NCBI GenBank assembly: GCA_018650085.1
Contig: JABIGQ010000005.1
Span: 1-32,346, forward strand
Length of the DNA: 32,346 nucleotides
From: Candidatus Magasanikiibacteriota bacterium
Lineage (GTDB): Bacteria; Patescibacteriota; Patescibacteriia; Magasanikbacterales; UBA922
Direction: 5' to 3'
Position numbers and translations under genes: made by a program. Shown here piece after piece: positions 21,112 through 28,912 of the stretch; within the stretch, counting starts at the first letter, position 1; every line of letters begins with the position of its first letter. The notes under the pieces are model-generated. The model had not been told where the DNA came from, searched no databases, and saw only the letters and a program-made list of their open reading frames with translations.

Positions 21112-21441
21112 TTACCACATTATATGAGTTGGTGGTGTCGGGGGGTCTGTGGGTGGAAATAGGACCCTCATGGCCCCATCTGGGGTCGGCCCGTCTCCCC
21201 AAAAGTATGAGTCGTACTTTGGGGTGGACGTTGCTATTTCGTCCTTTTGGCCGGTCGGACATCTGTACAGTATACTATCTTTTGTCATATTAAATACTAT
21301 GATCTTTTGTCCCGGTGCGACTCCACCGGAACATGAGAAGGTCACTCCTTCTTTTGAGATCATGGATGGGACGGTGGGGCAGCGGTGCGCCCCACAGCCG
21401 GTGGTGATGATGAGGGCGGTCAGGATGCTGAGAAGCTTCAT
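21112..21441 (-). CDS. Small GC-rich lipoprotein of unknown function
   Basis: The 109-residue product begins MKLLSILTALIITTGC, a lipoprotein signal with the modified cysteine at residue 16. The mature part has three more cysteines in addition to one close to the N-terminus, and ends in a Pro/Thr-rich tail. No family is recognised. A clear AAGGA ribosome binding site lies 6 bases before the ATG, unusual in this window. The gene and its flanks (about 21000-21480) are near half G+C by eye, while neighbours are clearly AT-rich, and it has its own promoter, long structured leader and terminator. This suggests a recently acquired single-gene cassette. Two overlapping frames (21011-21262 on -, 21149-21532 on +) are open only because of the GC-rich composition. 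Confidence 0.68.
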   Translation of the reverse strand: MKLLSILTALIITTGCGAHRCPTVPSMISKEGVTFSCSGGVAPGQKIIVFNMTKDSILYRCPTGQKDEIATSTPKYDSYFWGDGPTPDGAMRVLFPPTDPPTPPTHIMW

Positions 21442-25004: not shown

Positions 25005-26357
25005 ATGAATATAACATTTCACGGTGCAGCACATGGGGTTACAGGATCATGTCATCTTGTGGAAACACAGGGAAAGAAAATTCTTTTTGACTGTGGAATG
25101 TTTCAGGGATCTAATTTTAATGAGGGGAAAAATCATGATGATTTTCCTTTTGATCCTGCCTCTATAGATGCAGTTATTGTAAGTCATGCACATATTGATC
25201 ATACAGGGAGAGTTCCTAAACTTGTTCGTGATGGATTTCGTGGAAAAATTTATATGACAAAGGCCACCTGTCGATTGACCGAACTTATTTGGAATGATGC
25301 TTATCATATTATGAAATATGATTATAAAAAATTTCAAGTACCCTTATTGTATGATGAATCAGATGTTGAAATGGCGGTATCGCATTGTCATGGGGTTGAT
25401 TATCATGAAACCATTGATCTAGGAGATGGGATGACTGTGATATTTAAAGATGCTGGTCATATATTTGGTTCTGCATTTATAGAATTTCATGCAGAAGGAA
25501 AGAAAGTAGGGTTTTCTGGGGATTTGGGAAATATCAATGTGCCAATTTTACGGGGGACAGATCAGCTAGGTGCAGTAGATGTACTGCTTACAGAGTCTAC
25601 TTATGGAGATAGATTGCATGAAACAGAAAAAACGAGAAAAGAATTATTATTGCAATTAATCATGGATGGCACAAAACGTGGTGGTGTTATGATGATGCCA
25701 TCTTTTTCACTAGAACGTACGCAAGAAATTTTATATATTTTAGATGAATTACTTGAAACCGATAAAACATTGCCAGATATTCCTGTTTTCTTGGATAGTC
25801 CGCTTGCTATACGTGCTACGAGAGTGTATAAAGAATTCCCAGAATACTATAATAAAAAAGCTACAGAAAAGTATATGAAGGGGAATGATTTTTTAGATTT
25901 TAAACGATTGAAATTTACAGAAACAGTAGAAGAATCAAAAGGAATAAATAATGCAGATACTCCTAAATTAATTATCGCTGGCGCAGGGATGATGAATGGT
26001 GGGAGAATTTTACATCACGCAAAGCGGTATTTATCTGATCCAAAGGCTACTTTAATCATTGTGGGGTATCAGGCACATGGGACACTAGGAAGACGATTAT
26101 ATGAGGGGGCAGAAAGTGTGACAATACATGGAAGTAAGGTAAAAGTGCACTGTCAGATAAAAGCAATAGGAGCATTATCTGCACATGGAGATCAGACAAA
26201 AATTATTTCATGGATTAGAAATGCAGAGGAATTACCTGGAAAAATATACTGTGTGCATGGAGAAGAACATGCAGCGACTGCATTGGCCCATAAAATAACA
26301 AAGAGTTTAGATATAGAGGCGTTTGTGCCAAATGAAGGGGAGAGTGTGGAGGTGTAA
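25005..26357 (+). CDS. Beta-CASP metallo-beta-lactamase fold RNA-processing enzyme (YSH1/CPSF-like)
   Basis: This family holds zinc-dependent nucleases that cut RNA, related to CPSF-73 and archaeal aCPSF. The 450-residue product has the metal motif SHAHIDHTG with His61, His63, Asp65 and His66, then GHIFGSAFIEF, and FSGDLGN for the bridging Asp. The beta-CASP part shows PVFLDSPLA (motif A Asp), the GAGMMNGGRILHHAK block, and SAHGDQ near the C-terminus for the last His. It lacks the C-terminal extension of RNase J. A cytoplasmic role in RNA maturation or decay is likely; the exact target is unknown. It stands alone between two promoters and is followed by a terminator shared with the noncoding RNA on the opposite strand. 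Confidence 0.9.
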   Translation: MNITFHGAAHGVTGSCHLVETQGKKILFDCGMFQGSNFNEGKNHDDFPFDPASIDAVIVSHAHIDHTGRVPKLVRDGFRGKIYMTKATCRLTELIWNDAYHIMKYDYKKFQVPLLYDESDVEMAVSHCHGVDYHETIDLGDGMTVIFKDAGHIFGSAFIEFHAEGKKVGFSGDLGNINVPILRGTDQLGAVDVLLTESTYGDRLHETEKTRKELLLQLIMDGTKRGGVMMMPSFSLERTQEILYILDELLETDKTLPDIPVFLDSPLAIRATRVYKEFPEYYNKKATEKYMKGNDFLDFKRLKFTETVEESKGINNADTPKLIIAGAGMMNGGRILHHAKRYLSDPKATLIIVGYQAHGTLGRRLYEGAESVTIHGSKVKVHCQIKAIGALSAHGDQTKIISWIRNAEELPGKIYCVHGEEHAATALAHKITKSLDIEAFVPNEGESVEV

Positions 26358-26370
26358 AATCTTGCTTAGA

Positions 26371-26406
26371 AAAATAAAAGACTACCTATTTCTAGGTAGT
26401 CTTTTT
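26371..26406. terminator. Bidirectional terminator
   Basis: GACTACCTA-tttc-TAGGTAGTC (26380-26401) has a T tract on the plus strand and a T-rich tail on the minus strand. It ends the beta-CASP transcript and noncoding RNA 1. Confidence 0.88.
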
Positions 26407-26549
26407 AATTGAAAAAATGAATGGGGGACCAAGATTTAGAGAAGAATTGAACCTCGACCTAAATCTTAGCCCCCCGATGTGTTGAGTGATGTTGGAAGCA
26501 GGGCCCTCCATCACTCGTACTGACATAGCTCTCCTAAAGTTTTGAACGT
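26371..26549 (-). ncRNA. Noncoding RNA 1 (proximal copy of the tandem pair)
   Basis: A predicted transcript of about 180 nt runs from the promoter at 26556-26584 to the terminator at 26380. After a leader with GTTCAA and AGGAGAGC come two hairpins. The first is an 8-bp stem, 26484-26491 with 26509-26516 (GAGTGATG / CATCACTC). The second is a compound stem: GGGGG plus AAGATTTAG (26423-26439) with CTAAATCTT plus CCCCC (26459-26474), closing a 19-nt loop. A frame of 44 codons starts at an ATG 4 bases after the AGGAG, but its stop lies in the terminator stem and the ATG is missing in the other copy, so I treat the RNA as noncoding. No known RNA family is recognised. Confidence 0.7.
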
Positions 26550-26555
26550 CTATCA

Positions 26556-26584
26556 AACATACACGAGATTATGCTATCTGTCAA
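26556..26584 (-). promoter_or_regulatory. Promoter of noncoding RNA 1
   Basis: TTGACA (26579-26584), 17-bp spacer, TATGTT (26556-26561) on the minus strand. The spacer differs from that of copy 2 by one base. Confidence 0.8.
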
Positions 26585-26625
26585 TAGGGCATATGTGAAT
26601 AGTATAGATGTGTAGGGAAATTGCT

Positions 26626-26778
26626 TAGAAAAAAAGAACTACTCATTTTGAGTAGTCGTCTTTATTAAAAAATTGAAAGGGGGTCCGTGTGGGGGGTAGG
26701 GGTAGGATATAGACAGGTAGGACAAGGACCAACCACCCCACACGGATATGTATATAGGCTCTCCTTAACAGTTGAACT
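26626..26778 (-). ncRNA. Noncoding RNA 2 (distal copy of the tandem pair)
   Basis: A predicted transcript of about 150 nt starts near 26778 with GTTCAACTGTTAAGGAGAGC, almost the same leader as RNA 1. No start codon follows the AAGGAG. The body is one hairpin: a 10-bp GC-rich stem, CCGTGTGGGG / CCCCACACGG (26736-26745 with 26685-26694), around a 41-nt loop that carries three CCTACC repeats. GGACCCCC follows, then the terminator ACTACTC-aaaat-GAGTAGT and a T tract (26638-26656 and below). The stem and loop bear no likeness to those of RNA 1, though the frame around them is the same. Confidence 0.7.
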
Positions 26779-26784
26779 TTTTCA

Positions 26785-26813
26785 AATATACACGAGATTA
26801 TACTATCTGTCAA
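26785..26813 (-). promoter_or_regulatory. Promoter of noncoding RNA 2
   Basis: TTGACA (26808-26813), 17-bp spacer, TATATT (26785-26790) on the minus strand. The spacer happens to contain a second TATAAT. Confidence 0.82.
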
Positions 26814-26865
26814 TATGGCGTATGTGAATGATTGCAATATATTAAATTTTATGGTACTATATTTT

Positions 26866-26884: not shown

Positions 26885-28912
26885 ATGTCTAAATTTGTTT
26901 TAAAATCCAAGTATAAACCAGCAGGTGATCAGCCAAAAGCGATTAGTGGGCTTGTTTCTGGTTTGGAAAAAAATATAGATAGACAAACATTACTGGGTGT
27001 TACTGGTTCTGGAAAAACATTTACTATTGCAAATGTTATAGAGCAAATAAATAGACCGACACTGGTAATAGCGCATAATAAAACACTGGCAGCACAGCTG
27101 TGTAATGAATTTCGGGAGTTTTTTCCAGATAATGCAGTAGAGTATTTTGTATCATATTATGATTATTATCAGCCAGAGGCGTATATGCCAGGGAGTGATA
27201 CTTATATAGAAAAAGAAGCACAAATTAATCAAGAGATAGATAGACTTCGTCATGCCTGCACACAATCATTACTTACAAGAAAAGATGTTATTATAGTAGC
27301 ATCTGTATCTGCTATTTATGCACTTGGTTCCCCAAAGGAATATGAGAAAATTGTCTTGCATTTATCTGTGGGACAAGAGCTAGATAGACGTGGTATGATG
27401 GAGCAGTTAATTGATATGCAGTTTGAAAGAATAAATGTAGGATTAAAGCGTGGGACATTTCTTATGCGTGGACAAGTGTTTGAAATTATGCCAGTAAATG
27501 AAGAAAAAATTTATCGTTTAGAAATAAGTAATACCATTGATAGAATAGAAGTTATAGATCCAGTAACCAGAAAAGTGGTACAAGAGCAGGAAGATGTTTG
27601 GTTTTTTCCAGCAAAACATTATGTGGCAAGTAAAGAAGCGAGAGAAAAAGCATTTTTTCAGATGAGAAAAGATATAGATGATAGATTGGTGTACTTTAAA
27701 GAGAAAGGTAAATTGCTGGAGTACGAGCGATTGAAAAGAAAAACAAATTATGATTTGGAAATGATAAAACAAGTGGGGTATTGTAATGGAATTGAAAATT
27801 ATTCTTCTTATTTTGATGAGAGAAAAACTGGCGAGCCTCCGTTTACATTGCTTGATTATTTTTCACATAATAATGATAAATTTCTCACAGTGGTAGATGA
27901 ATCACACGTGACTATGCCACAAATTCGTGGAATGTATCATGGAGATAGATCTAGAAAAGAAACATTGATTGAACATGGATTTAGATTGCCAAGTGCACTA
28001 GATAATCGTCCGCTTATGTCTCCTGAATTTTTAAATAGAATTGATGATCTTATTTTTGTATCTGCAACTCCTGCTGATTATGAAAAAGAAGAATCAGGAA
28101 ATATAGTAGAGCAGATTGTGCGTCCCACAGGATTAGTCGATCCAGAGGTAATTATCCATCCAGTGACAGGAAAAGGAAAACAAAAATCTCAGGTAGAAGA
28201 TGTGATTGAAAGAATTGAAAAACAAGTAAAAAAAGGGGATCGTACATTGGTGACAACATTAACAAAGAAAATGTCAGAAGATTTAACAGATTATCTAAAA
28301 GATAAAGGTATTAAAGTCGCATATTTACATAGTGACATAAAAACAATTGAGCGAATAGATATTATTTCAAAGCTTCGTAAAGGGGAGTATGATGTGCTTG
28401 TGGGAGTAAATTTATTAAGAGAAGGCTTAGATATCCCAGAGGTTTCTTTTGTGGCTATTTTAGATGCAGATAAAGAAGGATTCCTGCGTAATGAAACGAG
28501 TCTAGTCCAGACTATAGGGCGTGCTGCTAGGAATGCAGATGGAAGAGTGGTATTATATGCAGATAATATAACAAAATCAATTACACGAGCGATAGAGGAA
28601 ACAGATCGTCGTCGTGAGATTCAATTAGCATATAATAAAAAGCATGGTATTACGCCAAAGACAATAGAAAAGAATATAAAAAATATTTTAGAAGAGTTTG
28701 GTATTTCTCCAAAAAAGGGGAAACATACGGGGAGAGCAAAAAAACAAAAACGATTATTAGAATTGGATCTGCTGGGGGATGATAGACCTATGAAAGAAAT
28801 TATTCGTGATAAGGAAAAGAAGATGAAAGAGGCTGCAAAGGATTTGGAGTTTGAATTGGCGGCTATATTACGTGATGAGATTCGTGTATTGAAGACGGTG
28901 AAGGAGGAGTAG
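26885..28912 (+). CDS. uvrB: Excinuclease ABC subunit B (UvrB)
   Basis: UvrB is the damage-verifying helicase-like subunit of nucleotide excision repair; it receives DNA from UvrA and recruits UvrC. The 675-residue product is full length. Walker A is GVTGSGKT (residues 38-45). The beta-hairpin that is inserted in the duplex is [16 protein letters not shown]. Helicase motifs include DESH, SATP and the QTIGRAARN block near the C-terminal third. The UVR domain at the end ([20 protein letters not shown]) binds UvrC. uvrA follows 1.4 kb downstream, separated by two genes. The upstream side holds the tandem noncoding RNAs on the opposite strand. The start codon lacks a Shine-Dalgarno. Confidence 0.97.

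Follow-up and report, generated by a model that had tools for sequence, protein, structure and literature searches.

A tandem pair of candidate small RNA genes with shared ends and unrelated middles upstream of uvrB in a Magasanikiibacteriota bacterium

Two promoter-to-terminator units between a beta-CASP ribonuclease gene and uvrB

The window analysed here, a stretch of 32,346 nt from a Candidatus Magasanikiibacteriota bacterium (contig JABIGQ010000005.1), carries on its plus strand a gene for a beta-CASP metallo-beta-lactamase ribonuclease with Beta-Casp and RMMBL domains (25005..26357) and uvrB (26885-28912); an earlier note on this DNA had rightly described these neighbours as an RNA-processing enzyme gene and uvrB. 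In the spacer between them two promoter-to-terminator units lie on the minus strand, unit A (26629..26813) and then unit B (26366..26584), which we annotated as putative small-RNA genes with predicted transcripts of about 150 nt (5' end near 26780) and about 180 nt, respectively. The ribonuclease gene is convergent with unit B, and a likely divergent uvrB promoter, TTGCAA-N17-TACTAT, was read from the plus strand at 26832..26860. The pair occupies a single place in the genome and nothing else there resembles it, which ruled out a mobile or repeated element. Elsewhere in the window we noticed a small orphan lipoprotein-like ORF (21112-21441, minus strand) with a signal peptide and a TTGCG lipobox, between lepA-like and murJ-like genes.

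The tandem arrangement described in the earlier note was present in both copies, including TTGACA, the 17-bp spacer with its single difference, the GTTCAA leader and the GG(A/T)CCCCC block. The promoter of unit A (26785..26813) consists of TTGACA (26813-26808), a 17-nt spacer and TATATT (26790-26785), with 11 of 12 consensus positions, and that of unit B (26556..26584) of TTGACA (26584-26579), a 17-nt spacer and TATGTT (26561-26556), with 10 of 12; the spacers, GATAGTATAATCTCGTG and GATAGCATAATCTCGTG, differ at one position. Both units continue with the leader GTTCAA-N6-AGGAGAGC and, further downstream, contain GGWCCCCC (as GGACCCCC or GGTCCCCC), a T-rich linker, a terminator and the tail TTTTTCTAAGCAA. 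The intrinsic terminator of unit A (26629..26657) is formed by GACTACTCAAAATGAGTAGTT and a T run, detected at 26657-26637, and that of unit B (26366..26405) by a 13-bp stem and a T run, detected at 26405-26376. A stretch of 2 kb contained five terminator-like sites, compared with 0.8 in shuffled sequences. Each copy thus has its own promoter and intrinsic terminator, as sibling small RNAs do. Two compensatory pair changes distinguish the terminator stems of A and B (ACTACTCA/TGAGTAGT versus ACTACCTA/TAGGTAGT), which agrees with the earlier claim that they diverged while remaining paired. Read from the sequence, the plus-strand face of the unit B terminator finishes in TTTTT too and might serve to terminate the beta-CASP mRNA.

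The local alignment of A and B scored 90, and the highest score among 1000 dinucleotide shuffles was 30. The period of 259 bp given previously applies to the 3' edges (CTAAGCAA) but not to the promoters, which are 229 bp apart because unit B is about 30 nt longer.

The central parts of the units were said to be unrelated yet well formed, and our analysis bore this out. Unit A has one central hairpin (26685..26745, minus strand; CCGTGTGGGG...CACACGG) with a large pyrimidine-rich loop, and unit B has two, at 26484..26516 (GAGTGATG...CATCACTC) and 26423..26475 (GGGGGGCTAAGATTTAG...CTAAATCTTGGTCCCCC), both on the minus strand. Upstream of GGWCCCCC, the centres aligned with a score of 11 against a shuffle mean of 12.6, and therefore the middles of A and B have no detectable relation. 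The folding z-scores were -4.45 for unit A and -7.71 for unit B, and -5.5 and -8.4, respectively, for the parts downstream of AGGAGAGC. Antisense pairing between A and B was also considered and set aside as unconvincing, since 9 of 200 shuffles paired equally strongly.

A diverged pair on the same plan in a related genome

The comparison within the genus is based on one other genome, G001. Its 409-nt spacer between the metallo-beta-lactamase gene and uvrB contains a diverged tandem pair of its own, with the same site, strand and order as A and B and with the same plan of promoter, AGGAGG, long hairpin and terminator. The first unit (u1) comprises TTGACA, TTTAGGAGGTG, a GGGTAAAGAGG hairpin and a short terminator, and the second (u2) TTGACA-TATAAT, TAAGGAGGTG, a ATACTGATGGGGG hairpin and a terminator; the predicted fold was strong for u2 (z -6.4) and marginal for u1 (z -1.8). 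Unit A was weakly colinear with u2 (score 46 versus 28.1 +/- 4.3 in shuffles, reached by 1 of 500, uncorrected for 15 comparisons). In both whole genus genomes, a search for TTGACA-TANNNT-AGGAG returned 12 and 14 matches, and inspection of these 26 left four orphan hairpin-terminator units, namely A, B, u1 and u2, while the remaining matches head genes or fall in coding sequence or gene leaders. Two orphan mini-genes with a promoter and a Shine-Dalgarno sequence were also observed in G001, one with a 41-aa hydrophobic ORF (L064) and one with a 22-aa frame and a terminator (L146). A further genome of the family, G010, has a comparable unit (G010 u2, folding z -5.9) at the metallo-beta-lactamase–uvrB site.

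BLAST of A and B against G001 and 57 further relatives gave no homologue; among the matches examined, all were to terminators, low-complexity sequence or coding sequence. No sequence homologue was found in family genomes, GTDB contigs, IMG/VR, phages or plasmids, and the exact promoter and leader patterns, searched in the GTDB contigs and IMG/VR, occurred in one Clostridia contig, about the number expected by chance. The earlier note recognised no known family, and neither the gathering nor the permissive thresholds of Rfam gave a match for A or B, with 6S among the families whose covariance models failed to match. A relaxed scan for orphan Shine-Dalgarno units in 750 kb yielded 4 matches, compared with 4-5 for control motifs, which rules out a genome-wide class; the units are repeated only at this locus.

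Another possibility is that an intergenic stretch with promoter and terminator was duplicated in tandem, that the duplication is neutral or in decay, and that its RNA would be functionless. The missing sequence conservation beyond the genome would fit such an origin, as would the relatives, most of which lack any such unit at the site (the beta-CASP–uvrB spacer measures 0-168 nt in many family members). The promoters are intact, however, the terminators changed in a compensatory manner, the folding z-scores reach -4.5 (A) and -7.7 (B), and G001 repeats the tandem plan, so that we consider a neutral origin improbable. The related genome has its own diverged pair at the same place, and for this reason the pair is probably real. 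The earlier note had proposed selection on the RNA of both copies with the middle free to change; the conserved promoters and ends, the compensatory terminators, the strong folds and the G001 pair all point this way, and the view of A and B as an RNA pair under selection is well supported.

A Shine-Dalgarno-like motif without a consistent start codon

On the minus strand, AGGAGAGC lies at 26758..26765 in unit A and at 26528..26535 in unit B. It resembles a Shine-Dalgarno sequence without a consistent start codon, a trait shared with the G001 pair and one on which the earlier note was silent. The 16S rRNA of this genome ends in GGATCACCTCCTTTCT at its 3' end, to which AGGAG is complementary, and the motif lies 14-23 nt from the predicted 5' end in A, B, G001 u1, G001 u2 and G010 u2. 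The predicted duplexes with the 16S tail were strong in the G001 units (-17.3 kcal/mol for u1 and -20.5 for u2) and weak in A (-8.2) and B (-7.3), with G010 u2 at -12.7. In the predicted folds of A, G001 u1 and G010 u2 the motif is partly paired.

AGGAG is normally the sign of an mRNA. The main rival reading is that A and B are small-peptide genes, i.e. structured mRNAs of orphan genes for tiny, fast-evolving peptides, with A starting at a distant or non-canonical codon. Every unit has a strong Shine-Dalgarno-like motif, and in unit B an ATG 4 nt after AGGAG opens a 44-codon frame (26392..26526, minus strand; MSVRVMEGPAS...), the same frame being open in A up to its terminator. Orphan mini-ORFs with a promoter and a Shine-Dalgarno sequence do exist in these genomes, such as the one at L064 and, in G010 unit 1, a frame of 36 aa. 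On the other hand, A, G001 u1, G001 u2 and G010 u2 have no start codon 2-15 nt past the motif, and the stop-free runs after it are no longer than in shuffled sequences, a fraction of 0.18-0.80 of which reach them. The ORF of unit B, whose open-run length is reached in 27% of shuffles, extends across the two long stems to a stop within the terminator stem; it had no Pfam match and was judged to be a chance occurrence. Because four of the five units lack a near start and the open runs are at the shuffle level, we favour non-coding RNA for A and B and hold the peptide reading to be rather unlikely.

The same motif could mean that the RNAs are mainly ligands of the 30S subunit, an untranslated Shine-Dalgarno bait that occupies 30S or shields the 5' end in the manner of STAB-SD elements, with the hairpins as merely structural ends. 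The motif is the element common to all five units, it is close to the predicted 5' end, and its complementarity to the 16S tail extends up to about 10 nt. Against this, only 5-6 bp of pairing are predicted in A and B, the motif is often partly paired, and the presence of two distinct, elaborate hairpins in each genome would be left unexplained; we regard such a role as unlikely, more so than the peptide reading.

Structured RNAs beside beta-CASP genes in other genera

In four other genera of the family (G019, G020, G024 and G002), promoter-to-terminator RNAs of 312-438 nt with folding z-scores of -8.8 to -12.6 lie antisense downstream of the beta-CASP gene, and Rfam gave no match for them. A fifth genus (G030) has a large structured antisense RNA of about 450 nt. 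All five loci (L097 in G019, L111 in G020, L100 in G024, L055 in G002 and L115 in G030) are located at most about 900 nt downstream of beta-CASP. Pairwise similarity among these RNAs is marginal, and they may possibly form an undescribed RNA class. No adjoining uvrB was found in G019 and G020, so any link would be to the ribonuclease gene. Under strict criteria, an automatic test detected structured antisense units beside beta-CASP at 1 of 44 other loci, which was not significant. With relaxed criteria, such units were counted at 5 of 43 beta-CASP loci and at 6 of 359 control genes (p 0.003 by Fisher's test); leaving out L104, which overlaps a tRNA-like sequence, lowers the first count to 4 of 43. 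The criteria were relaxed post hoc with the examples already seen, and the enrichment, like the idea that antisense structured RNAs are tied to the beta-CASP site across genera, is therefore suggestive only. It is improbable, in our estimate, that the site is a lineage-specific locus for paired non-coding RNAs that diversify rapidly, use an untranslated Shine-Dalgarno sequence to dock on 30S subunits and carry a changeable hairpin, forming with the larger RNAs of the other genera one undescribed class tied to the enzyme.

The best NCBIfam model for the beta-CASP protein (25005-26357) is that of type VII Cas14, ahead of aCPSF1, with a match over residues 1-446 at 444 bits, below the cut-off of 800; this resemblance probably reflects shared ancestry alone. 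The match and the large antisense RNAs of other genera could be taken to favour an antitoxin-like or RNA-guide system linked to the adjoining ribonuclease. Beta-CASP is, however, present in 45 of 46 family genomes, most of which lack such RNAs, as would be the case for a housekeeping enzyme, and neither Cas genes nor a repeat array were seen at the locus. A type III RNA antitoxin is made of tandem repeats and precedes, on the same strand, the gene of an endoribonuclease toxin, whereas the ribonuclease gene next to A and B is convergent and near-universal in the family. The comparison with antitoxins drawn in the earlier note was not upheld, with no toxin gene, no tandem-repeat antitoxin array and nothing antisense to an adjacent gene, and we consider a system of this kind very improbable.

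Comparison with known sibling small RNAs and a proposed mechanism

OmrA and OmrB of the Enterobacteriaceae depend on Hfq, are controlled by OmpR and base-pair with envelope mRNAs. Their first 21 and last 35 nt are nearly identical (PMC4211561), and like A and B they are tandem sRNA genes with near-identical ends and divergent middles. By analogy, this layout suggests that A and B may be trans-acting sRNAs. A and B differ from OmrA/OmrB in being unrelated to them in sequence (Rfam gave no match at gathering, and no Omr model appeared among the weak matches of the permissive scan), in having roughly double the length (about 150-180 versus 82-88 nt) and in sharing a promoter core and a Shine-Dalgarno-like motif. 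Duplicated adjacent sRNA genes are also found in AbcR1/2, PrrF1/2 and the streptococcal csRNAs, but in those groups the siblings are mostly similar from end to end, while the centres of A and B are unrelated. Clusters of csRNAs occur near the DNA helicase gene ruvB (PMC4211561).

In STAB-SD 5' stabilisers, a Shine-Dalgarno sequence reportedly does not serve initiation. The motif of unit A, with no start codon 2-15 nt past it, may be comparable, while B has its ATG, and the predicted pairing with the 16S tail is strong in the G001 units and weak in A and B; STAB-SD elements reside in mRNA leaders, whereas in A and B the motif would sit on a stand-alone short RNA. PMC3997798 cites Agaisse and Lereclus 1996 for STAB-SD.

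Taken as a whole, A and B probably represent a genuine pair of RNA genes that changes fast and, although its general style is known, has yet to be described. We put at about an even chance that they are tandem-duplicated sibling sRNA genes with a shared Shine-Dalgarno-like leader and private stem-loops, the leader contacting 30S or protecting the 5' end and the stem-loops presumably pairing with mRNAs. The basis is computational: the units and their architecture, the folds, the compensatory terminator changes (covariation being within A and B only) and the G001 pair. Weak Shine-Dalgarno pairing in A and B, the partly paired motif and the z-score of -1.8 for u1 count against it. A tandem duplication would have produced two genes, each with a vegetative-type promoter and an intrinsic terminator. 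The shared part would be an open 5' leader ending in AGGAGAGC, and the private part a central stem-loop, still folded although its sequence has diverged past recognition. Through its leader, which probably makes contact with the 30S subunit or shields the 5' end, each RNA would touch the anti-Shine-Dalgarno end of 16S rRNA and thereby either be protected from decay or be loaded on 30S subunits. The variable hairpin probably does the specific work and would provide each RNA with a partner of its own, presumably an mRNA with which it base-pairs. We infer in this way that A and B are transcribed, contact 30S and regulate targets in trans; no target for either RNA was found.

The untranslated Shine-Dalgarno-like motif would then be a variant feature within a known kind, the sibling sRNAs, and, should it bind the ribosome, small RNAs would have in it an unusual means of engaging translation. 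With fixed ends, exchanged middles and a different pair at the site in a congener, the locus may offer a concrete case of sRNA-sibling diversification. Our literature searches turned up no paper about small regulatory RNAs of these bacteria, which are ultra-small and for the most part uncultured.

Other structured RNA units were observed in the two genus genomes, again with no Rfam match, in the case of the first two at the permissive threshold. Similar units with 6S-like long rod folds lie at L136:7599-7795 in G000 (plus strand) and L152 3832-4029 in G001 (minus strand), directly 3' of a ribosomal protein L28-like or similar small ribosomal-protein-like ORF. A second unit present in both genomes, at L136 2099-2247 (G000, minus strand) and L152:17175-17322 (G001, plus strand), has CGGAGTAATC... 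and a GGCC-rich terminator.
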